From Antedon bifida (Eukaryota; Echinodermata; Crinoidea; Comatulida; Antedonidae), in assembly GCA_963402885.1 (NCBI GenBank), contig OY727094.1, positions 9,240,501 through 9,304,500 on the forward strand: 64,000 nucleotides of DNA, in the 5' to 3' direction. Below the pieces are notes generated by a model. That model made no database searches. It was not told the origin of the DNA and was given only the letters and a program-made list of their open reading frames with translations. The stretch's first letter is position 1. Each line of letters begins with the position of its first letter. Of the stretch, positions 1 through 26,500 are shown one piece after another. The position numbers were made by a program, and so were the translations under genes.

Positions 1-1
1 T

Positions 2-916: not shown

Positions 917-948
<32 letters not shown>
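2..948 (+). mobile_element. 3' end of a non-LTR retrotransposon (LINE), cut by the window edge
   Basis: From base 2 an open frame (EHEWEGINVATFN...) runs to a stop at 287-289. It carries a CX2C...HX3C-type zinc-binding motif (CSFCNIRRETVYHLFCKC), typical of the C-terminal end of LINE reverse transcriptases. The polypeptide appears to continue in another frame to about 503, so a frameshift near the T-run at 231-242 breaks it. Bases 301-558 are repeated in tandem at 559-819, duplicating the ORF tail and 3' UTR. An uninterrupted A-run ends the element at about 918-948. Everything 5' of this lies outside the window. The family (CR1, L2 or other) cannot be settled by eye. Confidence 0.8.
301..819 (+). 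repeat. 258-bp tandem duplication in the LINE tail
   Basis: The block starting at 301 (gtaatacaccatccaatagg) recurs at 559 with few substitutions, giving two 258-260 bp units. Each covers the last part of the LINE coding tail plus 3' UTR. The second unit stops in frame earlier than the first. Confidence 0.9.
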
Positions 949-950
<2 letters not shown>

Positions 951-1182
951 AGCACCCTGGGAATTACTTCCGAAGGAGAAACTTATCACAAAATGAGTCC
1001 ACATTTTTGATTTGGACTCATTTAAAGAAACCCAATTTGTGTTTTGTATGTAACATTAGGGTTGAGGGATGGGAAAGCGGATAGGTACAAAGAGGAACAA
1101 TTTTTAAATATATTCTTTATCCACTCAGTAACGAAATATTTTTTTCATGTTTTATAGGCCTATAAATAATATACCTATCACA
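949..1182. repeat. Dispersed repeat, second copy at 25,505-25,735
   Basis: The segment following the LINE poly-A is collinear with 25,505-25,735, which lies in an intron of gene B. Shared words include ggttgagggatgggaaag and tattctttatccactcagta. The copies differ by small indels. No coding potential or terminal repeats are evident, so the class is unknown. Confidence 0.75.
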
Positions 1183-3414
1183 AATGTATGAAGTACATCT
1201 TAAACTTATTGTTATCCAATATTGAATTTAAGTAGGACTATTAGAGAATTGATTTGTTCCTGTTTATCATAATGGTTGAAAGAACTTTAGTAAAATGTTT
1301 GGCTTTATAATACAAACATTTACATTAAAGGTAATTTCCGTATTGTAGACGTAAACCAGATTAGGTATAAGTGAAAGTGAGCGGTATCCCTACACATGTG
1401 AAAGAGCGGGATGATCAAAGTCTCGAGGAAATCATCATCACAGACGAAACTAATAATTATGAGTTGTACAATTATGTAACTCGGGCTCGTAACAGTCCTT
1501 TGATGTTTGGCTGTGAGAATACTAACAGTACTGGTTGAACCTAGGACTGGATCCATATTCTTAAATCCTATTTTGCGAAACATGCTTCCTTGATGGTAAG
1601 ACCTTTATTACCTCCGTCAATGAGGTTAAATTCATGGATGCAATATTATTTGTTTGTACAGTTGTCTTTTTGCATTTGTAGTATTTTTAGGTTTTGATAA
1701 AAATGCCCTTATTTGTACGTAGAACACGTTTCATTTTGATTTGTTTCGTAATAAACTATATTATTTGTTTAGTCATTTTATTAAACGTTAAGTATGCTTT
1801 TAACGCATTATTATATTGTGCCTACGTAAAATGTGACGTTATGACTTCTGAAAGTTCACAAAGCCCATGGTCAGGTAGCAAGAGAATACAAATTTTGAAA
1901 TTCGGCAGTTTAGTTTGTGGACACTCAAACAAATACAACACATACAACATATTCCGGATTGTGAAAACATTATCACCTGGTTTAGATTAAGTAATGAGGT
2001 AGATAGTTCATGAAATATAAACCAGTAAAATAACGCGAGTCAAGGCAGTTTTGTCTAGCTGTCAGCTAGACTTGTGACTCCTTGTGACTCTCTGTGGTGA
2101 TTGGGCTCCCTTTTCCAGTCGCCACCGAGGTTTTCCGCCTACCTCAACGAATCCGGGTTTCAAAATGAACATTAAATGTTTTTTGATTTGCAGAACATAA
2201 ACAACTCTGTTAATACGTGGTATGCCTGTAGATAAGGGGTTTCTTTCAACAATGCCGATTTCTTCATTTCAATCATTGCGTATCCAGGATTTTGTGAAAG
2301 GGGCGCAATTGTAAGGAGGAATCCAAACCCCACCATGGTTGGGACTGAGTTTTGGCGATTTTGAAAATATGACACTTAGGAGGTCGGAAATGGCACTCTC
2401 ACCTTATTATAAATGTATTAACAATTGATATTTTAAATAATATGAAAACTGAGGTAATAGCATAATAAAGGGTGACATTTTCCACATAGGCCTATTTTTA
2501 GTAAAAGCGTCACAACACGGCGCTTCGCGCAAGTCAGCGTTTCTACTTTACATGGCGGAAACGCCAATGGGTGGACTAGCATAAAAAAGATTATAAATAC
2601 CAAACTGAGGCAAGTCTAATCCCTATTTACAGACACCTATAATGAATTGGATACTTTGTCGAAAACGAGCTAAACATAATAGTAATAGGCCTGTTAGCGC
2701 AAATCAAGGATGTGTGAAGGCAATGCCAACGTCGAGAAAGTGCTACCATGTTTAAGCTTGGTTCCCACAAGAGACGCGACACAAGGACGTAACGCAACGT
2801 AAGTGAGTTGACCAATCACAAGCGATGGATTATTCGAACTGTCGCTTGCTATTGGTCAACACGCTTGCGGGCTGATGAAATATTGGTAAGTACAATATTA
2901 CAAGTGATACAACTCACTCCATTATAATACCTAAGCGTACATTTATTTTTCTGTGTCGACACTACCGTTACCTGCCATCAGTAAAATATACTTTTAAAGA
3001 ACGCCGATAATGCAGTCACAGAAAAGTCATTCTGTTTACATATGACATTATAATTATAATTTTTTTATACTATTAACTAGCCTATAAGATTATAATGTGA
3101 ACATTGTGACTTATATACTTCCCACAAAATAATCTAGTTTTATATTGTGATGTGATCAAGAAAAGTTAATTTTTAAAGACTTGTTAATCTATTTAGTTAG
3201 GTTTAGTGAAACAACAGTGCTGCAAATTGACAACATAACGTCATACGTTATTTTATGAAACAGACGACTAAAGCTAACTTCTTTCTTCTTATTTAGATAT
3301 TATTCTGTTATATTGTTCTAAAGAGTTGACGATATTTATTTTCATCGTAAACTTTTTCTTATTTAGGCTGCTACGGCTACTTACTAAGACATAACAATTT
3401 TGGCTTCTCTTAGC
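1183..3414. other. Downstream flank of gene A; start of the tandem duplication unit
   Basis: From about 1,183 the sequence matches 14,591 onward almost base for base, marking the left edge of a tandem unit. A 98-codon frame at 1694-1990 (+) recurs at 15134-15430 with two or three base changes. Since the whole tract is equally conserved, this is not evidence of coding. Bases 2,753-2,880 hold remnants of a small inverted-repeat element. No tail exon with a membrane segment was found. An AATAAA lies on the minus strand at 3335-3340. Confidence 0.7.
2753..2880. mobile_element. Degenerate MITE-like inverted repeat
   Basis: The segment begins with a ttggttcccacaagagacg-type terminus. It holds an internal inverted pair, gttgaccaatcacaagcga near 2,806 and tcgcttgctattggtcaac near 2,842. 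Related termini occur in the matching flank of gene B at 15,776-15,860 and 15,964-16,054. Confidence 0.55.
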
Positions 3415-6400
3415 CTACACATCTGAAATAAAAAGAAACACTCTTGTAATCTGTATATTAGTTATTAGGATGCTTTCAATTTGCGACAATCTAGACCAAT
3501 CATTGTGTCGCTGTTCGTCTCCTGGAAAATGTTAGCATTTAGTGAGAAAGCACGCGCATGATGAATTATGACGTAACAGTTCATAAGTCATCGTTCGACG
3601 CAAATCGAAAGCTCCAAATTGTGTGCTAGACCTCTTTTTATTGTTTTGCATAATATTGTTAGGAACGTCAATATGATTTTTATTATGGCGAAGGCAATTT
3701 CAATTACAATGGGAATGTTATGTATGTACTATACTATTCCAATGTATAATTGAAAACGTGGTTCTCAAAAGTGGCCATTATTATGCGTACATATCTAGTT
3801 GTGACCGGCTGTCATGCGTCTAGTAAACTAACTTAGTACACGTCTACATGTAGTATTTTACCTGATAATTTACAGGTTGAGACAGCACTTGCTGGACCTA
3901 ATGGTCCAGATGTCATCTGTCCATCAACATCCTTTAGACATTTGATAGCAACGTTGTATTGTTTTCCTGGTTTTAGCTTAATCAATATAAACTCAGTAGT
4001 TGTTGTAACTCCAGCCGTTGTGTAGTTCCCGCTGATAGAGTCCTTGTATAATACTTCATAGGATACGACTGGACCAGTTCCGAAATCCCGACCGAATACC
4101 CAATCAAACCAGCTGACTGTAATCTCTCGACGGTTTGGCGAAACATACAATATTGGACCATGTTCGAGGTATGGTAATGCTAATTAAGATAAAAATGCAT
4201 TTATTTTAAGTTGCACAAGAAAATAATCCAAAAAAGTTAAATAATAAATTAAAACAACCATTAGTTACCTATTTGACAATCATGACCGCCCCATTCTTCG
4301 TCACATACTCCATCTGCGCATGTGCCGTTGCTATAACAGGAATCTGAATTTTGACAATGGCAATGCTGATTACAGAGAGGTCCAAAAGTACCATTTGAAC
4401 AAGATACGTTTACATGCTCTGCAACAAACAAACAGAAATATATTTCAAATTGTTTTCCCAAGCTGAAAAGGTCTGGCTAACTATTAGTCTAAACTATCCC
4501 GTCTACGATATCCAATCTCTTCCATCAAGATAGTTTGATACCGCCTAACTCTCACTGTACTCACTCTCCAGTCTCTTAAGCCTACATCTATTTACTTTAG
4601 AGAGGAAGCAGAGTGAAGTTCACTTGAGTATTTCAATCTTTAGCCTATGCGAAGTTTATTCCTCAAAGACATCATGGCACAATTCAACTGATGGGCTTAT
4701 CCTACCTTGGCATTGAGGTCCATGAAATCCCGGGAAACATGATTCAATCTCACACCCTGCAACTGAGTCACAATTGTCTTCTGGACAGTTGCACACTTGC
4801 TTACAGTCTGCTCCGTAGAAACCTTCATTGCAGACTGAAATGAGAATCTAAATTATTGTCACATCATCTAATTACCATACGGTACAGTAGTATTACTAGT
4901 TAAGCTAGATTGACAGATATAGTGGATGTAAAGAATATCTAGCTCGAGTCCCTGACAACAGACGGTAGGCGGTAATAGAAGTGGCAAAGGCCAAGAAATT
5001 AAATCAATTGGACAATCCAAATGAACATTTTGTTGGTCATGCTGTCGATTCATGTTACTGTTTGCTAAGCTTCAAAGAATATGTAAAGAAATGTATGTCG
5101 AGCTTTATTACCTTCATTGCAGTCATGTCCATGAAATCCCGGCAAACAAGCACAACCAAGTGGTGAAGCAGGACAGAATAAGTTGCCTCTACAACCATTA
5201 TCTTCATTGTCACAATTCAAAGAACAATCTTCTCCCCAATATCCAGAATTACATACTAATCGAAACAAATGAAGCTTTATTTATCTTCCTTTGAATGTTT
5301 AGACTTGAATTGAATGAAGTGTGAAATGATTTCTACTTCTACTCGCAAACATGGATGAAGTAAATACTTACACCATGTTGCAAAACAAATAGTAATTGTC
5401 AAGTAACGAACCCTCTGAACAATCATTTCCAATGAAACCACTTGGACAGACACACAATGACGTCTGAGCGTCACAAATACCTCCGTTGTAACATACTGGG
5501 CAATTTAAGGCACAGCCAGGTCCATATTTTCCCAATGGACACTCTGTAACAAAATACATAGTGAGGTTAAAACCGTTTATTTTAACTGCTGTTATTAGAC
5601 AACTCATGATGTGCAGCTTTGAAGTTACTTAATCAAGAAGTACCAGAACACCGAGGAGAATGACACATGGTACAACAGTTATCATTAGAATGACGATGCA
5701 ACATGACTAATAATGGGATGAAAACAACCAATGACGGTGGATTTGCTGTGAGTGTTTTATCTGTAACTCTATAACAATAATTATAGTATGATTTTAAAAT
5801 ACATAATTAGTGTTGGTCCTTCTTAATTGTAACTTCTTATAATTGCATTAAAAACCTACCTTTAACATTTAATTGAATAATTGCATGGTTTCCTTGATTT
5901 CGTTTCGCTAGAAAGTGGCATTCGTAAATTCCACTATCTTTGGTTCGCGCATGCTCAATGATCACTGTACCCTTGTCTTTCCATTCTTTGATTCCGTTCC
6001 CACCATTATAGCGCCATCTTAGTCCCGTTGAATTGCTGTCAGTGGTTACAGAGAGAACAATTCTACCACCAGTTCCAACTACAACTGTTCTCTCCACAGG
6101 CTTAACGTTGGCTGAAATGTAAAAAAATTACTATACAATTTACTTCTATTTGATTCCATTTGGAGTTTTTTTTATAAGAAGCGTACAACAATCCTTTATT
6201 TATCAAAGTAAGTAATAACACATTTTGTAAATTTGATCTTTTTGGCCAAAATCAAAATTTACAAATATCTTACCTTATCTTACTAAAAAAATTAATATAA
6301 TAGTAAAATGTTTGCAATTGACAACATTACCATTTTTATCTAAGATAATAATTGTAGACTGACTCGGCAACGCCCATATCCCTAGAATGTCAGCAGAAAA

Positions 6401-9400
6401 GGCACCACTTTTGGCCAAAGAAGATTCTCCTGGAATCTTGGCAATAAGGGCGTGATATTCAAACTCAACAACTGTTTCAATCATTGTATTCTCAGGAAAC
6501 ATCATAGTTGGCAAAACGTGTGATCCTGGGTACGGACTTCCATCAAACCAAGACACGGGTCGGCCAATGACATCAGCTGCACCAGTACTACAGGTACGTC
6601 GTAGCCTCATGTGTGTAGAGAGCGCTCCGGAGTAAACAAAGATGTTAACATTGTCAGTTTTGTTGTAAACATCGACAACTGCTGGATGTGCCATTAACGT
6701 TACTCCGACGCGGCCGTCTGTTGAATAAATTAATTCGGATTAACATTGTGTAGTATAGTAGGCCAATATGCCTCGTGTGTGTATTGGATGGAACTCATCA
6801 TTTAAACAAAATATGCCTAATCACAGGTTTGAATCTTGAAGAGAATAGAGTAATAGATGGGCTACTTGGTATTATCTTACAATTATGAAGTAATATTGCT
6901 ACTTACAGTTACAAGCCATGTCATGAAATACTGATGAACTTGGTCTTCCAATGAATAGCTCACCAGATATGGTTCTATACGCTCGAATACATATCTCGTA
7001 TCGTCTGCAAGGGTTGAGATGACGCAGTACCAGTTCTGTGCCCTCTGTATAATCGCCAGATCGTACAACACCTTCAGAGGGTGTTGTGTACCGATAAAAC
7101 AGACGATACCCGGTAACGTTTCCCAGGCCGTAGTCTTTGTGAACTTCCCATTCATCCCATTCAAGATGAACACTGTGGAAATTAGATCTTAAGATGCGTG
7201 GAGGATTGAGAAGAGCTGGGATAGCTGCAAGTATAAACAGTAAAAACCTTCTCAACAATTTCAATTCTGTTGTTTTACCTTTTTGTTCTTTTTATTTTTT
7301 TCTATCCTTGCAGTTTATATTCATTTCTTTTTAAATACGAGTTTGTGATTTGAGGCACTGTAGTGTCAAATTTGTTTTAAAAATTCAGGCCGAATTTGCG
7401 CAACATTGGCAAGTGATGTTACTCGCTGTTGAATGTATGTTGAAAACAATTTAAACATAGAGTATGTTGGTATATATATGTACTGTGATGACTATGGCAA
7501 TGGTGCACATTCAAGATAATCTTTTAAGTTACCAAATTGACAGTCCTCGCCACCCCAACCTTCTTGGCAACCAAAGAGACAAGTTCCATTCTTGAGACAT
7601 CCTAGCGTCATAGAACAGTGACATTTATACTGGCACAATTTTCCGTAGAAACCATCGGGACATGGTGTCGAATAATCATAATCTGCAACAAAACAGCCAT
7701 GTCATTCTACTGTATATCGGTTATTCGTCTATATTCACCGTATTAAACAAACACAAATTGTATGACGTGTTACGACGTCACAGAATTGTAGATGACGTCA
7801 GATTTATTAAATATCCTTACCTTGACATTGTGGTCCACTGAAACCTTCATCGCATGTTATATTCATACAACCCATTGACCTATCACAGGCGTTAAACTTG
7901 CAGTGGCACAAACTCTTGCAGTCGGCGCCAAACGTCCCGTATGGACACACTTGGAATATAAGATAGAAACCATTAGTTGCTTTCTTTCTAATTGAAGAGA
8001 GAGAAAAACTAAAGTAAAAAACAACACTTATCTTGTCCTTATACTTACATTCTTTGCAATCCGGCCCTTTGAACCCAGCCATACATGAGCATCCTAATGG
8101 TTCAGGCAAACAGAACAAAATGTCGTCGCAACCTCTATTTAAACTACTGCAAATTTCTGAACAGGAACGTCCCCATTTATTGTCACCACATGCTTCAAAA
8201 ACAAAAAATGACTCTCTTTCTAATTTTGTATATTCAACATTTTTTTTAAAGCATTAAATATTCGAAATGAAAAAAAACCTATACGTACGTTCACTACAGT
8301 CATCACCCATAAACCCAGAAGGGCACAAACATGTCCCGTTGATAGTATGACATACTCCTCCATTATAACAAACTGGGCAATCTTTGTCGCAATCGGCGCC
8401 CCATTTGGGTTTTGGGCAATCTAAAACAACATACAGTTCATATCATGAATACAAATTCATCAAATTACGTCTTTTTTATTTTATAATGAAATTGATAGTT
8501 GTGTAGACTTTTATTGACTTTTAACCTTTAAAAACTTAGTTGTATTTAAATGTTTGCATATTATGCTTATCCATCGAGAGAGCTTTAAAATAGATCAAAA
8601 ATAAAATTAAAATAAATTGTCACCTCTTATAAAAACTTGAATTATTGCTTGCAATCCCAACTCTCTTTCCCCATCTATGTAACATTCGTATATACCGCCA
8701 TCTTTAGTACGAACACTTTCAATAATTAAACTAGTCTTTCCATTCCAGTCGATCATTACATCTCCTCCGTTATGGCGCCAACGTAGTTCATCTAAATCAA
8801 CACTGTTTTCTATATCAACCTCTACTTCAAGTCTTTCTCCAAAACCTGCTAATATCGTTCTGTTCTTTGATCGAATCTTTGCTGTAAATCAAATCTGAAA
8901 ATTATACATAATATTTCCTTTCCTTGAGAGAAGAAACCCACATTTTTATTGAATCGGTTTAAAAATAACTTTAATAATCTTGCCAACATTCTGTATACAT
9001 ACGGTAGGCCCTACTAACAATTTTTCCCTCACTAAAAATCGTTAGAGCCTACGGTAATTTTTTTTAAATATAGACTTTAGCCAAAAATAAATATTCAAAG
9101 CGAAATTGACTTTATTAGAAATCGTTACCTTCCTTTGAAACACTAAACGTTGTGATATCAGAAGTTAGTACCCCAGTTGTTGCCCAAGTGTAGAACACTC
9201 CAATATTTTTGGAAGTCGTGTTAGCTGGAAGCACCAGTAATATCGATGTAAAATCGAACTTCCGCATCATGGATACTGTGCTTTGCAAAGGAAACATGTT
9301 GTTACCCGATGTCAAACCACCGTTGTCAATTAGGCCTAGGTTTAGCTCTTCATCTCTAGTACCGTTTCTGGTATCACTGTTGAATTTACGACCAAAGTTG

Positions 9401-12400
9401 ACGTTATTTGTTTGATGATCTCCTATGGTGTAACCTCCAATCTTGAGACTTGAATTGGGGTTGTTCAATTCAATCAAAGGACTATAATTCATTACAACAA
9501 AATCCATTTCTTTTCCTATTAAAAACGAAATTCGAATATGGTTACTGTTGCAGTGCTCAAAAACAAAAATGTTTAAATTTATTAGCTGAATCCGCATAAT
9601 ACTAACTGTAGGCCAACAAAGATTTTGTGTACACACCCTGACAACCTACTTTCTAGAAATTATCAATCGCCTCAACGTTTTACTTGCCTGACTTAATCTA
9701 TAAGATTGAGTACAACAATCGAAACGTAGAAACTTAATCTTTCTGTTAAAATGGTACAGAAAACCATAGGCCTACTATACTATAGTTTTTCATCGCTATG
9801 CAAAATTTTAAACAATATTACATAATTAATTTATTAATTATACAAATTATGCGCATACTATCCCTATACAAATTATAGGAATTATTTTATTTCTGTTTAA
9901 CATAATTTGTTATATTTATTGTTTTCATTTCAACAAACAAATGATACCATTACGTTAATAAGCTATGCCTTTCTTTCGCAAGTTTCTCCAATAAGCTGAG
10001 GTACTAATCTATTATGTTATTATATGTTCGGCAAGCAAGGTCAATAAACGCAGATTGCTAAAATAGTCGTATCCGTGATTACGACTTATCATTCTAATTC
10101 TTACCGTCTGTGTAAGTTGTGAAGTTCACCGTTGGTGACAGAGGTCCTCGTGTTGACGTAGATCCAGTTTTTATCCGACATGCTACACCGATTTCAATGT
10201 TTCTACCAGCAGGAAGAGTGTTTGTATGACAAGATGTAGATGGTACTCCAACATTACAAATTACACGTTCCTCGTAGCCGATCTGAGATGCATCGATGTA
10301 GTATGCAGAACACCCGACAACGACAGGACCATAATCATAAGGAAATGTATCCCAGTTTACTGTTGGATTCAGTTGTCTCAAGTCGTTCGAAACAATCCGA
10401 GGTGGTTTTGTGAATACTGGAAGTTCTGTAAAAAATAACAATTTAAGTAATTTATAAGTGTAAGATTTGAATTGTGAATTCTACACTCCGTCCAGTTACG
10501 AAGGGTACGATATTTTCACAGAAGTTGAAAACGTTGCGTGCGATCAGAAGCATTCTATTTAGGCCAAATGTATTTGTATTTTTGTCTTCCCTATATTGAA
10601 TATCATAATAATGCTAAAAAGTGTTTAAAAATAGGATAGTTGGCACACTTCACATCGTCTGTCGGCGTCACTGTCACATAGAGTGTCGATTTTACAGAAA
10701 TAGGACCTTTATCATTGTTTGATTGAAGTCCAATTAATCTTTTCTACCAAAAAAACAAAAAACCCGGATAAATTCATAACTTTTTTTTGTTTTTTGTATA
10801 CCACTTACCGATTTGACAAAAATCTCCGGTCCATCCCACAGAACATTGGCCACCGGGACAACTTCCGTTTGTTCTGTAACATTCAGAGGACATCAAGCAG
10901 TGACATTCTGCGAGATAAAAACATAGTTTCCATCAAATAACATCATTAAATGTTTTATTCTTAAATAGGATTGTTGTTCTGAAAGTAATTTAAAAAATAC
11001 CAAAATGCTGTCTTCTAGGATGACATTTAACGCTGACGTCATATGAATGAGTACAATAAGATGAAGTGTAATGATCGCTACAATCACCAAGCGTTGGTTC
11101 CCAACCTGAGCATTTCACATGTGTAGAGCACATGGTACTCTGTGATTGGCCATAACGTGCACGGGTGTAACCAGACGAGGACCCAAATGAAATAATGCCG
11201 TCAACGAATCCAAGCTGCCTGCAAATTACCTGTTAAAATGTTTTAATCATTATCAATACAATCATGTATCATACATACAAGGGCAAAAACAAGAAACAAA
11301 GACAAAGAGGAAAAGAAATGAAAGAAGACAAAATGAACCATGTGTATCAAAAATTAGTCCATGCCTAAACATGTGCTTTAGGTCTAAACATTAGAAGTAC
11401 GTAATAGGTCTTACTCTTAAGATATTATTATTAACAAAACCAGGCACGTATCTAGAAATTATGCATGGTAGAGGGGGAAATATTTAAAGTACAAATAATT
11501 ATATAAGAAAACTAATATTAATGAAAATATATAAATAATTATATAACTTTAATATAGTTATTTGAGGTGGATGCGTCAAACTTTTTTATATAGGCTTAAT
11601 TTAGATAATTAATTATAAATACGTACCTTTGCTTCTGATTCAGTAAAGGAAGACGTGGTGATTGAAAGCCATGTGTTACCATTCAAAACTTCTACGCGTC
11701 CTTGATTACCTGAACTACCACCAACAAGACGTATTTTCGAGGTCTTAGCTAAAAATAGTAAAATAATGTTTCAATCAGTGGCGTATAGCAGATTTTGGGA
11801 CGCCTGTTTTGGTTGTTTTAAATCTTAGATTTATGCTACGCCTTTTTAAATTGAGTGTAACAGAAAAGTAGAATTCATGAGACCATTATCACCTGTCGGA
11901 TTTAGCCCAAGCCTTTAATTGCCATCCCTTTCTGTTCTGTGCTGTCCTAGCCCAATTTGTTTCTGAATAAGATATGTCATTCCATCATTGCGGTTTTCCT
12001 GTCACACATGATATCTGCTGAAGCAGCTCCGGCCAGCCTTTACTCTGATAAGAACTTCGTCTGAACTATTTCAACTGTCTGGCCCAGATACTTGTCATTT
12101 TCAATATCTCTATGTTATAATTATATGTTAATATGGCCTACTTTGTTTTTCCTTTGTGTATTTTAAGCCAATATTCTTACTTTTTCTATTCATTAGATAG
12201 ACTTATATGTCCGCGACTGATGTAGTTGTCAGAGCATCCGCAAATCTAAGGTCAGTTACACTTTCTCTGTCAATGTTGATTCCATTTTCATCAAGATTCA
12301 GATTCTTAAATATCTTTTGTCTATGGTGAAGATTTTGGGTGATAATGTCTATCCTTGTCTGACACCTATTTACTGTATATGTATAGGTTTGTATACATTA

Positions 12401-14369
12401 ATTATAATATAAAAACAACTAATTTAATGTTTGTCTTTAGTGTAATGCCTAGATTAAGATTTCAGTGAAAGCATTTCTTAGGCTGGGTTGAAGCATCAAA
12501 GACCCGTAACTTTTCCATTTTCACGCGCGCCCGGCTGCGCATGGCTGGCCTTGGTTTTGTAATACTTCACTTCCGCGTGTTCCATCCAGCAACGCTCGAG
12601 AGAACCAAGAAACTATGATCGATCGCGTGAAATTTTGTAAATATTCACGGTCCGGCTCGATAATCGTTATTTATCTTCAACTTAACGCAACTAGTCGTCG
12701 TAAACATTTGGTTGACAAAAAAACAGGCTTTAGGCTATTGGCGCAAAAAAAACAGTTTCGTGTATTATATGGTCTATAAAACCCACTATATTCAGATAAT
12801 TATATAACAAGAATCGACTAGCCAAAACGCCTCAAATGCTATCTCCGGGCGTCTAGAAAAAAAAACCCTAGACGATTATTTTCCCATATCGGCCCCTTTT
12901 TATCAAAATCCTAGATCCGCCCCTGGAGATGATCGATGTTTTAATACACACGAATATTCATCTGACACAAATTACTGTAAAGTCTATAAGAAATGTTTGC
13001 CAGTTACAACACGTGGACACATTACAACCCACACATAAAACAAATGCTTGTGTACTCCGCATACTGTACATTTAGCTTTCAGTTAGCATCCTATGAATAA
13101 GGACATTCATTTGTTAACAATTATTCACACTAGACACGAGACTGATGTACAGTACAACTCGTTCAATCAACAGTGATTGTTTTATACAAGTTATCCTTTG
13201 TTATCCTTCACCTCATGATGGGCTATGCCCGAAAAATGTCGTTAATAAATTTATATTGAAGCAGTTTTAACTTGTTTGATTTTGATTTTTTCTATCTACC
13301 CTGTCTATGCAGCTCTTTGATTTATATTTACTTACGTAAATTTATTTAAATAACATTTCTACGGCACCGTTATTTATGTGCATTTCCTTTGAGGAATGTA
13401 TGGAGGTGTGTGTAAAAGCAGTTGGATAGGTGTGTATACGTTGTAAAGTAGGCTTCAATTGTCCTCTGTCAACTCTGACAATTGAAAGTTATTGTTCATT
13501 ACAAGTAACGCAAAAAAAAGCAAATTAACTTACTTGAACAGGTAATTAAAACAAAATCGCAGGAAGAGTATCCCTGGTATCTTTCAGAACAATCTGAAAG
13601 ATGTGTTTCAGTTCCTTGGCAATAGTATCCGTAGTTGTTACTATACCTTGGAAAGGTATCACCAAGTCCCGTTGTTCGACTGCCCGACTCTTTAGTATAC
13701 GATACACTTCCTTCATAACCAAGTTGTCTACAGACAACTTTAGTGTCTTCCATATCCCAAGTATTACAAAAAAAATACCACGTGCCGCCTCTCCGCACCA
13801 GTAGCTTACCATTACCAAAGTCTGTACCATCGACAAGTTTAACAGAATGGCTCGGTGATGTACCTAACATACAAAAGAGGTAAGCTACTTAAGTTAATTA
13901 AATAATTTGTTTCTACAATTTAAAACAGTAGACTAGAATAAAATAAAAGTGCGAGAAACTAATACATTCTAAGTACGGAAGTTTGATAACCGTAGACCCA
14001 GGCCTTCTTCAATCAGTGCAATGTGCCAAGATTCAAATTGACAACTTAATTTGTTTATATTTCATACTCAACAGCGAGACACGCCAACTACAGGATCATG
14101 GAGTGAATGAAAATGAACTTAAGAGTCGTGAGTTACAACACTGGTCATGATTGAACACTGTTAGCTGGAAGGCAAGCACGTTAACCAAAGAGCTAGCTAA
14201 CAGTTGTAATTATAATTAGTTACTTCAGGGAAGTAGCTTGCTTGGAGTGTTGCTGTCAACAAAAATTGGGTTAAATAATTCTTTACAAATTCTTAAAAGT
14301 TCACTCACCACTAATTCTTTCCAAACTGACTAAGAGAGCAAACACAAAAAGATGCATTGTCAAACACAT
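3415..14369 (-). CDS. Gene A: secreted multidomain SRCR/EGF/FN3/Ig-like protein
   Basis: Exons, 5' to 3': 14309-14369, 13534-13863, 11627-11748, 11001-11229, 10809-10907, 10105-10425, 9129-9515, 8624-8881, 8289-8420, 8049-8192, 7821-7949, 7533-7682, 6907-7224, 6331-6717, 5860-6111, 5412-5543, 5112-5255, 4706-4834, 4269-4418, 3862-4179, and a short terminal exon 3415-3422. All joins keep frame, giving about 1,399 residues. Domains: signal peptide 1-20 (MCLTMHLFVFALLVSLERIS), SRCR 21-131, SRCR 131-248, EGF to 281, FN3 to 388, unnamed domain X to 517, Ig-like to 603, four EGFs to 788, FN3 to 894, X to 1023, Ig-like to 1107, four EGFs to 1292, FN3 to 1398. If the last donor is not used, translation ends at 3833 instead. 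Neither end has a membrane segment or kinase, so the protein is probably secreted. The X-Ig-EGF-FN3 order recalls Tie/angiopoietin-receptor ectodomains, and the SRCR domains recall scavenger receptors. The ligand is unknown. Confidence 0.85.
3862..4179 (-). other. Gene A exon 20: third, last FN3 domain
   Basis: This 318-nt phase-1 exon encodes an FN3 domain with VSWFDWVFG, the VVSYEVLYK strand and the TEFILIKLKPGKQYNV loop. Its donor (G|GTAAAATAC) can splice to an acceptor after a pyrimidine tract (TTTCAG, exon from 3422), giving a two-residue tail and a stop. Reading through gives a nine-residue tail (KILHVDVY region). Both options are conserved in gene B. Confidence 0.8.
4269..7224 (-). other. 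Gene A exons 13-19: second FN3-X-Ig-EGFx4 module
   Basis: This is the second copy of the seven-exon module. FN3 (6907-7224) has VTGYRLFYRY. Domain X (6331-6717) contains VSWFDGSPYPGSHV. The Ig-like exon (5860-6111) has GLRWRYNGG and SGIYECHF. Four EGF exons follow. Exon 16 (5412-5543) ends at an unusual GTTCGT donor, supported by its length (132 nt, same as exon 9) and by conservation of the same donor in gene B. Confidence 0.87.
7533..10425 (-). other. Gene A exons 6-12: first FN3-X-Ig-EGFx4 module
   Basis: Seven phase-1 exons of 321, 387, 258, 132, 144, 129 and 150 nt encode FN3, domain X, an Ig-like domain and four EGF-like units. The next seven exons (6907-7224 down to 4269-4418) measure 318, 387, 252, 132, 144, 129 and 150 nt in the same order with recognisably related peptides, for example CPVCYNGG in exons 9 and 16. 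This is an internal duplication of a whole module. The Ig-like domain keeps the LRWRHNGG tryptophan strand and GIYEC but lacks an obvious first cysteine. Confidence 0.88.
11001..11748 (-). other. Gene A exons 3-4: second SRCR domain, split by an intron
   Basis: Exon 3 (11627-11748) encodes IRLVGGSSGNQGRVEV and the TWLSI strand. Exon 4 (11001-11229) continues with VICRQLGF and the cysteines of GWEPTLGDC and DVSVKC. The intron between them is phase 0, unlike the phase 1 introns elsewhere in the gene. Splitting over two exons is usual for group A SRCR domains, whereas the first SRCR is a single exon, so the two domains may have different origins. Confidence 0.82.
11900..12370 (-). mobile_element. 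Decayed RTE-like LINE fragment in intron 2 of gene A
   Basis: On the minus strand, pieces of a reverse transcriptase are readable: VRQG near 12,352-12,366, then LSPK.FT, then RFAD near 12,232-12,250. Nearer 11,905-11,960 is a C-terminal RTAQNRKGW-like piece. The motif order matches RTE-type endonuclease-RT proteins. Stops and deletions show it is dead. The much shorter matching intron of gene B has no counterpart. Confidence 0.6.
12371..13533. other. Rest of gene A intron 2
   Basis: This AT-rich intron sequence holds no recognised exon. A hAT-type terminal word (aatcctagatccgcccctg) lies at about 12,907-12,925 with no matching opposite end found. The same 19-base word occurs, also on the coding strand, in the last SLC6 exon near 51,010-51,030. 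Confidence 0.5.
13534..13863 (-). other. Gene A exon 2: first SRCR domain
   Basis: One 330-nt phase 1-1 exon encodes a scavenger receptor cysteine-rich domain. It has the hallmark start (VKLVDGTDFGNGKL), the VVCRQLGY core and six cysteines, ending DFVLITCSS. SRCR domains bind ligands outside the cell in many animal immune and adhesion proteins. This exon is among the most diverged from its partner in gene B (28267-28596), roughly 60% identical by eye. Confidence 0.88.
14150..14215 (-). mobile_element. Possible tRNA-derived SINE head in gene A intron 1
   Basis: Read on the minus strand, the segment resembles tRNA-like SINE heads: a GCTCTTTGGTTAACGTGC stretch like an A box, then GTTCAATCATGACC like a degenerate B box. 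No body or tail was delimited. Confidence 0.35.
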
Positions 14370-14441
14370 AACTGTTGTTACTGTTGATTGTAGATGCGGC
14401 GGCAGCCTACTCTTACTGAAAATTATACTGTGGGCGTGGTG

Positions 14442-14449
14442 TATTTATA
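14442..14449 (-). promoter_or_regulatory. TATA box of gene A
   Basis: TATAAATA on the minus strand lies about 75 bases upstream of the start codon at 14369. The surrounding GAGCCGTATAAA is also conserved upstream of gene B (29219-29226), suggesting a shared core promoter for both paralogues. Confidence 0.6.
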
Positions 14450-15775
14450 CGGCTCTTGTTGCAAATTCACACTAAATTTGAATCGAACAATATTATCAAA
14501 ATGTAGAAAGTTATACGGCCGGCTGCTCTAATCAAGTGTTTAGTGTTCTCACAGGTATTATGTCTATATTAAATGTTGACTTTATTTTATTACAAATTTA
14601 TGAAGTACATCTTAAACTTATTGTAATCCAATATTGAATTTAAGTAGGACCATTAGAGTATTGATTTGTTCCTGTTAATATAACTACACTAAATTATCCT
14701 GTTTATCGCAATGGTTGAAAGAACTTTGGTAAAATGTTTGGCTTTATAGTATAAACATTTACATGAAAGGTAATTTCCGTATTGTAGACGTAAACCAGAT
14801 TAGGTATAAGAGAAAGTGGGCGGTATCCTTACACATGTGAAAGAGCGGGATGATCAAAGGAAATCATCATCACAGACGAAACTAATGAGTTGTACAATTA
14901 TGTAACTCGGGCTCGTAACAGTTCTTTGATCCTTTAATGTTTGGCTGTGAGAATACTAACAGTAGGCCTAATGGTTGAACCTAGGACTGGATCCATATTC
15001 TTAAATCCTATTTTGCGAAACATGCTTCCTTGATTGTAAGACCTTTATTACCTCCGTCAATGAGGTTAAATTCATGGATGCAATATTATTTGTTTGTACA
15101 GTTGTCTTTTTGCATTTGTAGTATTTTTAGGTTTTGATAAAAATGCCCTTATTTGTACGTAGAACACGTTTCATTTTGATTTGTTTCGTAATAAACTATA
15201 TTATTTGTTTAGTCATTCTATTAAACGTTAAGTATGCTTTTAACGCATTATTATATTGTGCCTACGTAAAATGTGACGTTATGACTTTTGAAAGTTCACA
15301 AAGCCCATGGTCAGGTAGCAAGAGAATACAAATTTTGAAATTCGGCAGTTTAGTTTGTGGACACTCAAACAAATACAACACATACAACATATTCCGGATT
15401 GTGAAAACATTATCACCTGGTTTAGATTAAGTAATGGGGTAGATAGTTCATGAATTATAAACCTGTAAAATAATGGAGTCAAAACAGTTTTGTCTAGCTG
15501 TCAGCTAGACTTCGTCAAGTCTTGTGTGGTGATTGGGCTCCCTTTTCCAGTCGCCACCGAGGTTTTCCGCCTTCCTCATTGAATCCGGTTTTCAAAATAA
15601 ACATACCTTAAATGTTTTTTGATTTGCAGAACATAAACGACTCTGTTAATACGTGGTATGCCTGTAGATAAGGGTAATATGAAAACTGAGGTAATAGCCT
15701 AATAAAGGGTGACATTTTTTCCCATAGGCCTCTTTTTAGTAAAAGCGTCACAACATGGTGCTTCGCGCAAGTCAG

Positions 15776-15860
15776 TCAACTGTCGCTTGCCATTGGTAAA
15801 CACGCTTGCGTTGCGTCTACGTCCTTGCGTTGCGTCTTAGTGGGAACCAGGCTTTAATTT
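15776..15860. mobile_element. MITE half-copy
   Basis: This sequence, from the gtcgcttgccattgg segment to ttagtgggaaccaggcttt, forms one arm of the same inverted-repeat family as 2,753-2,880 and 15,964-16,054. It contains repeated ttgcgttgcgtct words. Confidence 0.5.
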
Positions 15861-15963
15861 TACCAAAGCCAAACAATTCCAATTCCAAATCAATTTCATC
15901 TTCGTTATCGTCGTCATAATCATCAATCATCATATCACAATCATCCTAATATCATTGACATCA

Positions 15964-17526: not shown

Positions 17527-20500
17527 CTACACATCTGAAATAAAAGGAAACATTCTTGTAAACTGTATATTAGTTATTAGGATGCTTTCAATTTGCGACA
17601 ATCTAGAACGATCATTGTGTCGCTGTTCGTCTCCTGAAAAAATGTTAGCATTGAGTGAGAAAGCACGTTTAAATGTCCTAGTCTTCCCATTATGAATTAT
17701 GACGTAACAGTTCATAGGTCATCGTTCGACGAAAATCTAAAGCTTCATATTTTTGTGCTAGACCTCTTTTTATTGTTTTACATAATATTGTTAGGAACGT
17801 CAATATGATTTTATTTTCTGGCGAAGGCAATTTTAATTACAATGGGAATGTTATATTTATGTACTGTATTACTATTCTCTATACTTTACAATCAGAAACA
17901 TGATTCTCAAATAAATAACGCATATTATGCGTACATTTGTTTTGTACGGCTGTCATGCGTTTAGTAAACTAACTTAGTACACGTCTACATGTAGTATTTT
18001 ACCTGTTAATTTACAGGTTGAGACAGCACTTGCTGGACCTAATGGTCCTGACGTCATCTGTTTATCAACATCCTTTAGACATTTGATAGCAACGTTGTAC
18101 TGTTTTCCTGGTTTTAGCTTATTCAATATAAACTCAGTAGTTGTTGTAACTCCAGCCGTCGTGTAGTTCCCGCTGATAGAGTCCTTGTATAATACTTCAT
18201 AGGATACGACTGGACCAGTTCCGAAATCCCGACCGAATACCCAATCAAACCAGCTGACTGTAATCTCTCGACGATTTGGCGAAACATACAATGTTGGACC
18301 ATGTTCGAGGTATGGTAATGCTAATTAAGATAAAAATGCAGGCATTTTCAAGTTGCACATGAAAATGTAATCCAAAAAAGTTAAATAATAATTAATTAAA
18401 ATAACCATTAGTTACCTATTTGACAATCATGACCGCCCCATTCTTCGTCACATACTCTATCTGCGCATGTGCCATTGCTATAACAGGAATCTGAATTTTG
18501 ACAATGGCAATGCTGATTACAGAGAGATCCAAAATTACCATTTGTACAAGATACGTTTACATGCTCTGCAACAAACAAACAGAAATATATTTCAAATTGT
18601 ATAGTGTTTCCCAAGCTGAAAAGGTCTGACTAACTATTAGTCTAAACTATCCCGTCTACGATATCCAATCTCTTCCATCAAGATAGTTTAATACCGCCTA
18701 ACTCTCACTATACACACTCTCCAATCTCTTAAACCTACATCAATTTACTTTAGAGAGGAAGCAGAGTGAAGTACACTTGAGTATTTCAATCTTTAGCCTA
18801 TGCGAAGTTTATTCCTCAAAGATATCATGGCACAATTCAACTGATGGGCTTAGCCTACCTTGGCATTGAGGTCCATGAAATCCCGGGAAACATGATTCAA
18901 TCTCGCACCCTGCAACTGAGTCACAATTGTCTACTGGACAGTTGCACACTTGCTTACAGTCTGCTCCGTAGAAACCCTTATTGCATTCTGAAATGAGAAT
19001 CTAAATTATTGTCACATTTACAAATTACCATACGGTACAGTAGTATTACTATTTAAGCTAGATTGACAGATACAGTGGATGTAAAGAATATCTAGCTCGA
19101 GTCCCTGACAACAGACGGTAGGCGGTAGTAGAAGTGGCAGAGGCCAAGAAATTAAATCAATTGGACAATCCAAATGAACATTCTGTTGGTCATGCTGTCG
19201 ATTCATGTTATTGTTTGCTAAGCTTCAAAGAATATGAAAAGAAATGTATGTCAAATTTATTACCTTTATTGCAGTCATGTCCATGAAATCCCGGCAAACA
19301 AGCACAACCAAGTGGTGAAGCAGGACAGAATAAGTTGCCTCTACAACCATTATCTTCATTGTCACAATTCAAAGAACAATCTTCTCCCCAATATCCAGAA
19401 TTGCATACTAATCGAAACAAATGAAGCTTTATTTAACATCCTTTGAATGTTTAGATAATTAATTACTGGATTTACAGTAAATCGTCTTCTACTTGCAAAC
19501 ATAGATGAAGTAAATACTTACACTATGTTGCAAAATATTTGGCGAAGCATCCGTTTACATTTGCTATTATACCAATTACATCGAAATATGTTGGCGGCAC
19601 AGAGAAACGTATAGGCCTATTATATTTACACGGAAAATAATAATATATATACATATATATGCGACACATAATAATTGAAGAGAGTAACGAACCCTCTGAA
19701 CAATCGTTTCCAGTGAAACCACTTGGACAGACACACAATGACGTCTGAGCGTCACAAATCCCTCCGTTGTAACATACTGGGCAATTTAAGGCACAGCCAG
19801 GTCCATATTTTTCCAATGGACAATCTGTAACAAAATACATAGTGAGGTTAAAACCGTTTATTTTAACTAATTAAAATCTCATGATGTGCAGCTTTAAAGT
19901 TACTTAATTAAGATGTACCAGAACACCGAGGAGAATGACACCTGGATACAACATTTATAATTAGAATGACGATGCAACATGACTAATAATGGGATGAAAA
20001 TAACCAATGACGGTGGATTTGTTGTGAGTGTTTATCTGTAACTCTATAACAATAATTATAGTATGATTTTAAAATACATAATTAGTGTGGGCCCTTCTTA
20101 ATTGTAACTTCTTCGTCGTTATACTTGCAGTCAAAACCTACCTTTAACATTTAATTGAATAATTGCATGGTTTCCTTGATTTCGTTTCGCTAGAAAGTGG
20201 CATTCGTAAATTCCACTATCTTTGGTTCGCGCATGCTCAATGATCACTGTACCCTTGTCTTTCCATTCTTTGATTCCGTTCCCACCATTATAGCGCCATC
20301 TTAGTCCCGTTGTATTGCTGTCAGTGGTTACAGAGAGAACAATTCTATCACCAGTTCCAACTACAACTGTTCTCTCTACAGGCTTAACGTTGGCTGAAAT
20401 GCAAAATTTACACTTTTTATATTCTATTTGAATGGTAAAAACAAATCAATCTCTTGTAAAGAATGAACTTTTTTAGAAATAAGTAAATAATATTATTTAT

Positions 20501-23500
20501 AAAAGACAAAATACATTGCCAAACTTTAACCGACAGTCAGCAACAATGTTTACAACAATCTTTTTTTGTTATAAAGTGTACTAATAATAAAATGTTATAA
20601 TATAGAAATGGTCACACCATTTTTATCTAAGATGATAATTGTAGACTGACTCGGCAACGCCCATATCCCGAGAATGTCAGCAGAAAAGGCACCACTTTTG
20701 GCCAAAGAAGATTCTCCTGGAATCTTGGCAATGAGGGCGTGATATTCAAACTCAGCAATTATTTCAATCATTGTATTCTCAGGAAACATCATAGTTGGCA
20801 AAACGTGTGATCCTGGGTACGGACTTCCATCAAACCAAGACACGGGTCGGCCAATGACATCAGCTGCACCAGTACTACAGGTACGTCGTAGCCTCATGTT
20901 TGTAGAGAGAGCTCCGGAGTAAACAAAGATGTTAACATTGTCAGTTTTGTTATAAACATCGACAACTGCTGGATTTGCCATTAACGTTACTCCGACGCTG
21001 CCGTCTGTAGAAGAAACTAATTCGGATTAACATTGTGTTAAAGTATAGTAGACCAACATGCCTCGTGTGTGTATTGGATGGAAGTCATCATCTAAACAAG
21101 ATAGGCCTAATCACAGGTTTGAATCTTGAAGAGGATAGAGTAATAGATAGGCTACTTGGTATTGTCTTAGAATTATGAAGTGATATTGCTACTTACAGTT
21201 ACAAGCCATGTCATGAAATACTGATGAACTTGGTCTTCCAATGAATAGCTCACCATATATGGTTCTATACGCTCGAATAAATATCTCGTATCGTCTGCAA
21301 GGGTTGAGCTCACGCAGTACCAGTTCTGTGCCCTCTGTATAATCGCCAGATCGTACTACACCTTCAGAGGGTGTTGTGTACCGATAAAACAGACGATACC
21401 CGGTAACGTTTCCCAGGCCGTAGTCTTTGTGAACTTCCCATTCATCCCATTCAAGAAGAACACTGTGGAAATTAGATCTTAAGATTCGTGGTGGATTGAG
21501 AAGAGCTGGTATAGCTGCAAGTATAAACATTCAAAAAGTTCTTATCAATTGTTTTACGACGTTTATATTCGTTCTAAAAGAAAAACAGTTTTTTGTGGCA
21601 CTAGTGTCAAATAATTGTTAGACCGCATCTGCTTTGACAAGTTTTGTTACTTACTGTTGAAAACAACTTAACCATTGTGAGCAAGATAGTCTTAAATTAA
21701 TTACCAAATTGACAGTCCTCGCCACCCCAACCTTCTTGGCAACCAAAGGGACAAGTTCCATTCTTCAGACATCCTAGCGTCATAGAACAGTGACATTTAT
21801 ACTGGCACAATGTTCCGTAGAAACCATCGGGACATGGTGTCGAATAATCATAATCTGCAACAAAACAGCAATTTTGTCATTCTACTGTATATCGGTTATT
21901 CGTCTATAATCACCGTATTAAACACACACGAATTGTATGACGTGTTACGACGTCACAGAATTGTAGATGATGTCAGATTTATAAAATATCCTTACCTTGA
22001 CATTGTGGTCCACTGAAACCTTCATCGCATGTTATATTCATACATCCCATTGACCTATCACAGGCGTTAAACTTGCAGTGACACAAACTCTTGCAGTCGG
22101 CGCCAAACGTCCCGTATGGACACACTTGGAATATAAGAGAGAAACCATAAGTTGCTTCCTTTCTAATTGAAGAGAGAGAAAAACTAAAGTAAAAAACAAC
22201 ACTTATCTTGTCCTTATACTTACATTCTTTGCAGTCCGACCCTTTGAACCCAGCCATACATGAGCACCCTAATGGTTCAGGCAAACAGAACAAAATGGCG
22301 TCGCAACCTCTATTTGAACTACTGCAAATTTCTGAACAGAAACGTCCCCAGTTATTGTCACCACATGCTTAAAAAACAAATAAAAAAATCAGTAATTGAC
22401 TCTCCTTCTACTTTTATATTATTTAAAGTGTGTTGAATAGCATTAAATATTCGAAATGAAAAAAAAACCAAAATGATACGTACGTTCACTACAGTCATCA
22501 CCCATAAACCCAGAAGGGCACAAACATGTCCCGTTGATAGTATGACATACTCCTCCATTGTAACAAACTGGGCAATCTTTGTCGCAATCGGCGCCCCATT
22601 TGGGTGTTGGGCAATCTAAAAAAACAGAGAGTTTTTGTAATTTATTTTGAAGAATACAAATTCATAAAATGACGTCTTTTTTTATTTGTAATGATATTGA
22701 TAGTTGTGTAGACTTTTATTACCTTTATAACATTTATAATCTTAGCTTCTCCTTCGAGAGCCATTTGAAATTTTAAAAATAAATTGTCACCTCTTATAAA
22801 AACTTGAATTATTGCTTGTAATCCCAGCTCTCTTTCCCCATCTATGTAACATTCGTATATACCGCCATCTTCAGTACGAACACTTTCAATAATTAAACTA
22901 GTCTTTCCATTCCAGTCGATCATTACATCACCTCCGTTATGGCGCCAACGTAGTTCATCTGAATCACCGTCTTCTATGCTCACCTCTAGTTCAAGTCTTT
23001 CACCATAACCTGCTATTGTCGTTCTGTTCCTTGATCGAACTTTAGCTATAAATGAAAAGATAATAATAAAGGCAACTGCAATTATAGGCCTACTAGTCTT
23101 TTCAATTTCAATTTTAATTTATTAATACACAATGAAATAATGTTAAACTAGTTTGTTAATAAATAAATAAAATTGCATATAAATACAATGAAAAGTAGTT
23201 CGGTCATGTTGGGGGAGAGTTATATCAGTCAGAACGACTTTTAAGACTGCTCAAAGATTTTTGTGTACCTTTCTTAAAACTTATCTTCATATAACATTTG
23301 TCTCTAAATTGTGAACATAATCTCATTTATGTTTTCTTCAGACCAATTATTAGTAAAGAGGCTTTCGTATGAGCAAACTTTCAGTTTTTTAAATTATGGA
23401 CTTCAGTTTGAAATAAAATATTGAATTGCTTTTATCTGAGGTAAACATAGTTTAAATATCATTCCCAACGGGATGTCAAATCTTAAATTTCACCTCTAAA

Positions 23501-26500
23501 CAGGCAATATCTGTATAAAATAGTTACCTTCTTTTGAAACACTAAACGTTGTAATATTAGAAGTTAGTATCCCAGTTGTTGACCAAGTGTAGAACACGCC
23601 AATATTTTCGGAAGTGGCGTTAGCTGGAAGCTCCAACAGCACCGATGTGAAATCAAACTTCTGAACGACCGATAATGTGCTTTGTAGAGGAAACATGTTG
23701 TTATCTGATGTCAAAATACCGTTTTCAAATAGGCCTAGGTTCAGCTCTTCGCCATCTGTACTATTCATTGCATCATTGCCGATTTTACGCCCAAAGTTGA
23801 CGTTATTTGTTTGATGTTCACCTGTGTTGTAACCTCCAAGTTTGAGACTTGACTCAGGGTTGTTTAATTCAATCAAAGGACTGTAATTCATTAAAATAAA
23901 GTCCATTTCTTTTTCTAAAATAATAACAATACTGATTAGACTGTGCTTGTTCAATTCATTATTTGCGTCAACTTGACTCCAGAAGGCAGTTGACTACAAC
24001 AATCGAAACGTCGAGAAACACTCACTCAAATATTGATTCCTTTTGGAACGACATAATAATTATAGGCTAACGCAAACCTTACTTTATTTGAGTTTTGTCG
24101 AGAATTAATCTTTTAGAAGTATTACCAAATAAAATTGTAAAAATAATATAATGCACGGTAGCCTACATAATATAATTACTGTATGTAAATTATAGAAATT
24201 ATTTATTTTTAAAAAGCAATAAAATGTCATCCGCGCTTATCCAATAGGGTTGGTGAAATCTGTTGATTAATATTATGTTTTTATATTATTATTATTATAT
24301 TTTTTTATTTCTTTTATAAAGTTTCATCACGAGACTTATTATGTTGTGACCTATGATATTTAATTACAAATTTATAGTGATAGGCCTAATTTAAAACGAT
24401 TTTCTTTCTTACCGTCTGTATACGTTGTGAAATTTACCGTTGGTGACAGAGGTCCTCGTGTTTTTGTAGATCCAGTTTTTATCCAACATGCTACACCGAT
24501 TTCAATCTTTCTACCAGCCGGAAGGGTTGATGTACGACAGGTTGTAGTAGCACCAACATCACAAATTAAATGTTCTTCGTATCCTATCTGAGATGTATCG
24601 ATGTAATAAACAGAGTATCCCACAACAGGAACAACAGTAAAATCATTGTAAGAAAATGTATCCCAATTTACTCTTGGACTCAATGAACTTCCGGAAGGGA
24701 CCATCCGAGGTGGATCTGATAAGGCTGGTGGTAGTTCTATTTTCGAAGGATTTTAATTAGTAAATAAACGAATAAACCTGTCAATCTAAGATTAAAACAT
24801 GTAAATGCTCTACTTATACAGAAGTATTGCCCAAAAATGTATTGACGTAGTCGGGGAAATTCAAATTTTTATTCACACTTTACACAACGTGTATTAATAG
24901 TAGTGAAATAGACCTACGCACCTTGCTATATAATATTGTATATTAGAGTTATATTGATATGGGTGTTGTAATCAGTATGCATTGCAACATTTTAGAAAAC
25001 AAAAACTTATTATGTAAGTAAAGTAATAGAATAGTAAAAATTATTATTGAGCAAAATAAACAGAACAATAGAGATACCATTAAATTGGAATGGAGCAATT
25101 GATTTACAATGATGGATCTAATTATTAGTCCTCTTGAGCATTTTCCAATTAAATTTAACTTTTTACCGATTTGACAAAAATCTCCGGCCCATCCAACAGC
25201 ACATTGGCCACCAGGGCAACTTCCGGTTGTTCTGTTACATTCAGAGGACACCAAGCAGTGACATTCTGAGAAAAAACATAAATAATTTTTAATAAGCAAT
25301 TCCACTACCTTCCCCCTTACCTACAGTATACTGGCAGTTACCTTGTGACCAACCAAGTTAAAATTAAACCACATAGAAGAATACCAATATAATCAATGTT
25401 TTTCTCGAATACACAGTAATTTCAGCGTTAAAAAAGTACGTACCGCAGGACTATAATACATTGTTTACAGAAACGAATAAATAGACACGATAATTTATGT
25501 AGTCAAGTAAAATTGGCACCTTGGCAATTACCTCCGAACGAGAAACAAATTTTTGATTTGGACTCAATTTGTGTTTTGTATATGACATTAGGGTTGAGGG
25601 ATGGGAAAGAGGATGGGTACAAAGAGGAACAATTTTTAAATATATTCTTTATCCACTCAGTAACGAAATATGTGTTCATGTTTTATAGGTCTATAAAATA
25701 ATATACCACTAAATACAGTAAAACATTTGAGATTTAATATTTAAAATTGTCATAGTAAATTGAAATAGTAAAGTACATGTAACGATACACCAATACGACG
25801 TTTATATTTTTGTAATTATTAATTAATACAAACGTTAAGAAGCGACTGTCATTAATAAAGTTTATTTGTATATTATGTGTTTATATATATAAGTAAGAAT
25901 ATATCTAAAGGTTTTAAGTTTATCCCCAAGGACCCATAAATTTAAGTAAATCGGCCTATCTTCAACATTTTGATGCTGTACTCGAGCTATTCAACCGGTT
26001 TTCAGCTAGTATCGTAGAAGGAGATAGGTAAATGCGAAGCATCCTCGTATTATTGTGTGCGGGTATTTTTCAAGATGGACATCCAGTGTATACTGGAAAA
26101 CACCCCTGGGGCAAATCTTTGAATCCAAACTAATTATCTAACTCAATTTAAGTAGTAAATAGGGTTACATCAGGTGGTTAAAATCAGTACCGAATGTAGG
26201 AACCAACTTTATAATTATACTATCGAGTAAACATCCTAGAAGTAACGCGCGATTTACCGAATGTTGCCGTTACGTAAATTTATATATAGATAATGACTTC
26301 TATTAAATAGTAAACCTAATCTAGGCAAAAGGTTTTGATTCATAAATGGGATTTTTAAAATTCATTTAGACTTACCGACATATTGCCTTTTAGGATTACA
26401 TTTAACACTGACGTCATGTGCATGAATACAATAAGATGAAGTATAAAGTTCGCTACAATCACCAAGCGTTGGTTCCCAACCTGAGCATTTCACATTTGTA

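Follow-up and report, generated by a model that had tools for sequence, protein, structure and literature searches.

A 64,000-nucleotide window of the crinoid Antedon bifida (contig OY727094.1, positions 9,240,501 to 9,304,500) carries two genes that lie head to tail on the minus strand, gene A (14369→3862) and gene B (29138→18003). Their predicted products join SRCR domains to an internally repeated series of Ig, EGF and FN3 exons that resembles the ectodomain of Tie receptors. The window has a G+C content of 34.8% and reads as animal DNA. Exons were placed in gene A from open frames and AG/GT borders, and then mapped onto gene B. Both genes show the same 20 exons in identical order: a signal peptide, SRCR1, SRCR2 on two exons, an EGF, then FN3, a domain that we call X, Ig and four EGFs, the same seven exons again, and a last FN3 (Table 1).

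The initial annotation had described a seven-exon module repeated inside each gene. Its exon lengths are borne out in gene A, with AG/GT borders, for exons 6–12 (321, 387, 258, 132, 144, 129 and 150 nucleotides; 10425→7533) and exons 13–19 (318, 387, 252, 132, 144, 129 and 150 nucleotides; 7224→4269); exon 20 measures 318 nucleotides (4179→3862). Gene B follows the same 20-exon plan and thus holds the repeat as well, with 324, 387, 255, 132, 144, 129 and 150 nucleotides in exons 6–12 and 318, 387, 252, 132, 144, 129 and 150 in exons 13–19. Every exon ends in phase 1, as had been stated for the repeat exons, except at the exon 3/4 border, which is in phase 0 and falls within SRCR2. The donor of exon 16, GTTCGT, is unusual and is identical in genes A and B.

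At the 5′ end, the promoter motif AGAGCCGTATAAA precedes the signal-peptide exon in both genes, and the region around exon 1 of gene A (14313–14492) aligns with its counterpart in gene B (29082–29266) at 72.9%. A single giant gene running from B into A was considered; it is ruled out by the TATA motif and signal-peptide exon that gene A has of its own. No further exon copies were matched between 29 and 64 kb at E 0.01. The SRCR cap proposed at the outset is supported by PF00530, which matches the gene A protein in two stretches (E 2.7e-27; 95.4 bits against a cut-off of 26.1). Exon 6 of gene A, taken alone, gave no match to Pfam fn3.

The internal repeat exceeds what chance would give. By summed alignment scores, the in-register pairing of exons 6–12 with exons 13–19 is the best of 5040 exon orders in both genes, and no other order reaches it. 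Units a and b of gene A are 40% identical in Ig, 58% in EGF1, 47% in EGF2, 50% in EGF3 and 46% in EGF4, with z scores of 14–29 against shuffles. The similarity is weak for X (exon 7 against 14: 19% identity and z 4.1 in gene A, z 5.9 in gene B) and for the FN3 exons 6 and 13 (25% identity and z 4.8 in gene A, z 8.3 in gene B). The initial annotation had named an absence of similarity between the two sets of exons as the finding that would speak against a repeat; similarity is present, strong in the Ig and EGF exons and weak in X and FN3.

The boundary of the repeated block appears to lie one exon further downstream than proposed. The closest pair of FN3 exons is 13 and 20 (z 19.4 in gene A, 17.6 in gene B), and FN3 exon 6 of gene A scores z 5.0–5.2 to exon 20 and 4.5–4.8 to exon 13. 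Pairing exons 7–13 with 14–20 outscores the pairing of 6–12 with 13–19 (876 versus 813 in A, 884 versus 842 in B). The lone EGF of exon 5 in gene A reaches z 8.4 and 10.6 to EGF4a and EGF4b, versus 0.5–4.9 to EGF1a–EGF3a. Because exons 13 and 20 form the closest FN3 pair, the shifted pairing scores higher and exon 5 is EGF4-like, we favour a repeat unit of X-Ig-EGFx4-FN3, present twice behind an EGF4-FN3 remnant (exons 5–6), in which exon 5 would be what is left of an earlier unit. This shift falls short of proof, because in gene B exon 6, too, shows fair similarity to exon 20 (z 12.6). The copying of a block stands as originally described and its FN3-X-Ig-EGFx4 boundary probably does not; exon 20, which had been thought to start a third round, pairs best with exon 13 and so more likely closes the second.

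To which family does the unit belong? In a PDB sequence search, TEK (Tie2) was the first match of both units (E 3e-34 for unit b, 9.5e-36 for unit a), and the best matches other than TEK had E values of 1.2e-05 and 9.7e-06, respectively. All six EGF1–EGF3 exons of gene A prefer the same-numbered EGF of TEK (z 17.5, 18.4 and 9.0, and 14.4, 10.3 and 11.8), and both EGF4 exons are nearest to TEK EGF3. The Tie-family feature that was tested, a Tie-type EGF1-EGF2-EGF3 series in order after an Ig domain, is therefore found in both units of gene A, and the earlier description of a Tie-like ectodomain unit is supported for EGF1–3. The Ig exon is likely the counterpart of Tie Ig2: the PDB alignments to TEK cover only its last part, and on its own it compares weakly with TEK Ig2 (z 1.2 for Ig a, 4.9 for Ig b). 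From its position before the Ig exon, X perhaps corresponds to Tie Ig1. The start of Xa resembles the mature N-terminus of TEK (Ig1), to a degree matched by 78 of 2000 shuffles in gene A and 7 of 2000 in gene B. Xb gave no match to TEK Ig1, X matched no Pfam family, and neither Xa nor a four-sequence profile matched a PDB sequence; structure predictions of X reached a predicted local distance difference test score (pLDDT) of only 30.9 and 30.1. The Ig3 and the three FN3 domains of Tie were not found in the units, in which one FN3 follows each EGF4 and there is no Ig3.

Genes A and B diverge unevenly along their length. For exons 1–7 the nonsynonymous (dN) and synonymous (dS) divergences are 0.18 and 0.46 (dN/dS 0.38), and for exons 9–20 they are 0.020 and 0.055 (dN/dS 0.37); both ratios point to constraint on the two copies. 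Introns 1–7 align at 43–63% between the genes, and nine of the twelve introns 8–19 at 84–97%. This pattern fits an old tandem duplication, after which the 3′ part underwent conversion or unequal exchange, and it may also stem from an assembly chimera. Intron 14 (6112–6330 in gene A, 20394–20617 in gene B) aligns at 50% between flanking exons that are 97–99% identical; a local alignment runs through it, and the low value may be partly an alignment effect.

The 3′ interval of gene B is fully visible in the window and is closed by the TATA motif and signal-peptide exon of gene A. Kinase, FN3, Ig and EGF families were all without a match in Pfam scans at E 0.1 of the three minus frames of 14430–18002 and 1–3863, the sole hit being a stray, sub-threshold VirK (E 0.072). 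Four kinase motifs, which were the search applied to the rest of the window (with eight chosen frames in addition at 29–64 kb), yielded over the whole window one stray HRDL at 63585. Across both 3′ flanks and any minus frame, 15 stretches exceed a hydropathy of 1.6. Neither 3′ flank yielded a convincing membrane exon in these scans, and the initial claim that the genes have no membrane or kinase exon holds within the same limits, with none in the 3′ interval of gene B up to the TATA motif of gene A.

Several candidates for the terminal exon present themselves. Read through its donor, exon 20 adds GKILHVDVY and then stops. A frame from 3521 gives 34 residues and is also open in B. The block 1978→1585 (15418→15025 in B) differs between the copies by 1 substitution in 157 positions (1822–1978) and 2 in 237 (1585–1821), with flanks of 88% and 96% identity, and could be a terminal exon or the trace of a very recent gene conversion. 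Within the stretch 1532–1997 (14970–15437 in B), this block, about 99% identical over 1585–1978, is far more similar between the copies than most introns are. Acceptors were scored with a matrix built from the 38 modelled acceptors, of which 33 score above 0 and 5 below 0 when left out. All terminal-exon options shared by the two genes would give a short tail with no helix, and we do not commit to one of them.

We tentatively favour, with somewhat less than even confidence, the reading that each of the tandem genes encodes a secreted protein with a recognition role, in which a Tie ectodomain is combined with an SRCR head. As reconstructed from the exons, the protein would have about 1,400–1,450 residues and comprise a signal peptide, two SRCR domains, an EGF4-like domain, FN3, two units of X-Ig2-EGF1-EGF2-EGF3-EGF4-FN3 and a short tail; it is probably secreted, and a soluble product is supported, short of proof. 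In the history that we propose, phase-1 exons of a Tie-type receptor ectodomain would have been copied as a block within the gene and joined to SRCR exons, with the exons for the membrane part and the kinase left out. A tandem duplication of the complete gene would have come later, and the homogenisation of the 3′ half, from about exon 8 to the 3′ flank, much more recently. The product may act as a soluble, opsonin-like recognition protein of the body fluid, whose SRCR head and long Ig/EGF/FN3 stalk would attach to surfaces that are foreign or altered self, or to other matrix proteins. Work on other echinoderms offers context: in Holothuria glaberrima, the top genes of one coelomocyte cluster include one annotated TIE1 (PMC11925454), and an SRCR protein of a starfish is reported to act as an opsonin (Furukawa 2012, cited in PMC13409769). 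The whole word 'Tie' is absent from the main text of the Holothuria glaberrima genome preprint (PMC13228809).

A number of observations weigh against this reading. The recognition role draws on domain analogy and on other species, and dN/dS gives no sign of positive selection. Within the homogenised half, the alignment drops to 70% in intron 12, 50% in intron 14 and 76% in intron 16. The acceptor of the 1976→1585 block scores −0.1 and ranks 47th of 130 AGs in gene A and 67th of 177 in gene B, and behind the strongest acceptors shared by the genes (3422/17534 and 3219/17312) the frame ends within 1–5 codons; 3422 scores best in A, with a single further codon before the stop, and 3219 comes second. 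One hydrophobic stretch above 1.6 is common to both copies (1979/15419; 1.62), but it is out of phase with the nearby acceptor. Both copies keep an open phase-1 frame through the peptide VS(L/V)VILYLPIF (at 2912 in A and 16425 in B; hydropathy 1.47), and gene A alone has in-phase hydrophobic stretches of 1.53–1.79 behind fair acceptors at 2575, 2690 and 1510, the last of which is present in B (14944), where the frame stops after two codons. Gene A may also have a distant 3′ exon past the window edge.

A rival reading is a membrane receptor, perhaps a signalling one, with its membrane part past the window or missed in the exon search. In its favour are the 3′ side of gene A, which reaches the window edge, the uncommitted terminal exon and the in-phase hydrophobic stretches, one of them in both copies. 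We nevertheless judge it unlikely: the 3′ interval of gene B ends at the promoter and homologous signal-peptide exon of gene A and holds no family match, and the in-phase stretch common to both copies counts some eleven hydrophobic residues and lies behind one of the worst acceptors (118th of 130 in A, 173rd of 177 in B). A further membrane candidate at about 3695–3728 in gene A was rejected, as a frameshift disrupts it in gene B. Somewhat more plausible, if still improbable, is a matrix or adhesion protein, that is, a long modular component of the extracellular matrix in which Tie-like exons are mere structural building blocks. Matrix proteins commonly mix SRCR, EGF, FN3 and Ig domains, the gene A protein has 17 N-glycosylation motifs (a mere pattern count), and the absence of a positive-selection signal suits such a role as well. 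Against it, both units have kept the Tie EGF1-2-3 register, and EGFs mixed freely would have no need of that.

The twice-retained, Tie-derived EGF1–3 and the absence of a detected membrane part would suit a soluble decoy, which would bind Tie ligands (angiopoietin-like proteins with a fibrinogen domain) in the body fluid and dampen a kinase-bearing Tie encoded elsewhere in the genome. The region of the TEK Ig2 loop is five residues shorter and unlike TEK in both units, although the alignment is weak there. Because this loop, which we take to make the main angiopoietin contacts of TEK, seems shorter and different, an angiopoietin decoy is not favoured; it would also leave the SRCR head unexplained, and we consider it doubtful. 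The ligands and the kinase that it presupposes have echinoderm precedents: angiopoietin-like proteins are listed from the coelomic fluid of holothurians (PMC12119288), and sea urchin SpTie1/2 (Stevens 2010) is a receptor tyrosine kinase whose expression is raised in the axial organ and in coelomocytes (PMC12113024, PMC6494969).

Table 1. Features of genes A and B, in window coordinates
Feature	Position	Strand	Basis or remark
TATA-like GTATAAATA upstream of gene A exon 1	14450→14442	minus	
Gene A exon 1, signal peptide MCLTMHLFVFALLVSLERISG	14309..14369	minus	judged by eye; homologous to gene B exon 1
Gene A exon 2, SRCR domain 1	13534..13863	minus	Pfam PF00530
Gene A exons 3 (11627–11748) and 4 (11001–11229), SRCR domain 2, phase 0 split	11001..11748	minus	Pfam PF00530
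Gene A exon 5, single EGF, nearest to EGF4a and EGF4b	10809..10907	minus	pairwise z
Gene A exon 6, FN3-like domain a	10105..10425	minus	similarity to exons 20 and 13
Gene A exon 7, X domain a, possible Tie Ig1 counterpart	9129..9515	minus	position before Ig exon; start resembles mature N-terminus of TEK
Gene A exon 8, Ig domain a, Tie Ig2 position	8624..8881	minus	Pfam Ig_3, best stretch 523–584; last part in TEK alignment
Gene A exons 9–12: EGF1a 8289–8420, EGF2a 8049–8192, EGF3a 7821–7949, EGF4a 7533–7682	7533..8420	minus	EGF1–3 in register with TEK EGF1–3
Gene A exon 13, FN3 domain b, probably closing unit a	6907..7224	minus	Pfam fn3 23.3 bits, just below cut-off 25; best partner exon 20
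Gene A exon 14, X domain b	6331..6717	minus	19% identity to exon 7
Gene A exon 15, Ig domain b	5860..6111	minus	Pfam V-set 27.7 bits, cut-off 26; TEK Ig2 z 4.9
Gene A exons 16–19: EGF1b 5412–5543, EGF2b 5112–5255, EGF3b 4706–4834, EGF4b 4269–4418	4269..5543	minus	EGF1–3 in register with TEK EGF1–3
Gene A exon 20, FN3 domain c, probably closing unit b	3862..4179	minus	Pfam fn3 25.1 bits, cut-off 25
Candidate gene A terminal exon, 50 residues in phase 1, then stop	1585..1976	minus	AATAAA at 1609–1604; no membrane helix in frame
Gene B, same 20 exons (signal peptide 29060–29138 to FN3c 18003–18320)	18003..29138	minus	
Matching candidate gene B terminal exon	15025..15416	minus	

Elsewhere in the window, an LTR-type (long terminal repeat) retroelement lies on the minus strand at 43444–49147, with a gag-like frame (47035–48372) and a 921-residue frame (44447–47209) that matches protease, reverse transcriptase and RNase H. 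Its ends are related and carry the same 71-bp tandem repeat in 10.5 and 4.8 copies, with a stretch of 212 bases that is 100% identical. Upstream of genes A and B, three pieces of a sodium:neurotransmitter symporter gene (SLC6 type) lie at 51512–59316 on the minus strand, one of the three below the Pfam cut-off. An inverted repeat at 34524–35120 (about 210 bases, 94% identical) contains 15-base minisatellites, and a tandem repeat at 49470–50141 has 6.9 copies of a 97-base unit with 94% matches.

The predicted architecture is reminiscent of Tie receptors (vertebrate Tie1 and Tie2/TEK, sea urchin SpTie1/2) in that an Ig domain is followed by EGF1-EGF2-EGF3 in Tie order, here twice, with X at the Ig1 position and FN3 downstream of the EGFs. 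However, two SRCR domains stand in front, the unit is repeated, and no membrane helix or kinase was found here. TEK has Ig3 and three FN3 domains before the membrane, whereas the crinoid genes place a fourth EGF between EGF3 and FN3. Echinoderms and other invertebrates also have secreted SRCR proteins with many domains, such as starfish ApSRCR1, which share the signal peptide, the SRCR domains and the apparent secretion; the crinoid proteins differ in having only two SRCR domains, joined to a duplicated Tie-type ectodomain. The combination of SRCR with such an ectodomain is named in no paper title among the matches listed. EGF scavenger receptors of the MEGF10/PEAR1/SREC type have similar runs of EGF repeats, and a weak Pfam EGF_PEAR1L signal below the cut-off was seen; in contrast to these, the EGFs here are in Tie register, Ig, FN3 and SRCR are present, and no membrane part was found.

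A more far-reaching proposal, to which we give limited credence, is that a Tie-type ectodomain cut from its kinase, doubled and capped by SRCR domains constitutes a dedicated invertebrate family of secreted immune receptors or decoys, of which the tandem pair would have homogenised Tie-like halves and diverging SRCR heads. Tie receptors are known mainly as vascular kinases. If our reading is true, the Tie module would serve extracellular binding on its own, apart from vascular signalling, and invertebrate genes annotated 'Tie-1 receptor' by ectodomain similarity may not be kinases.

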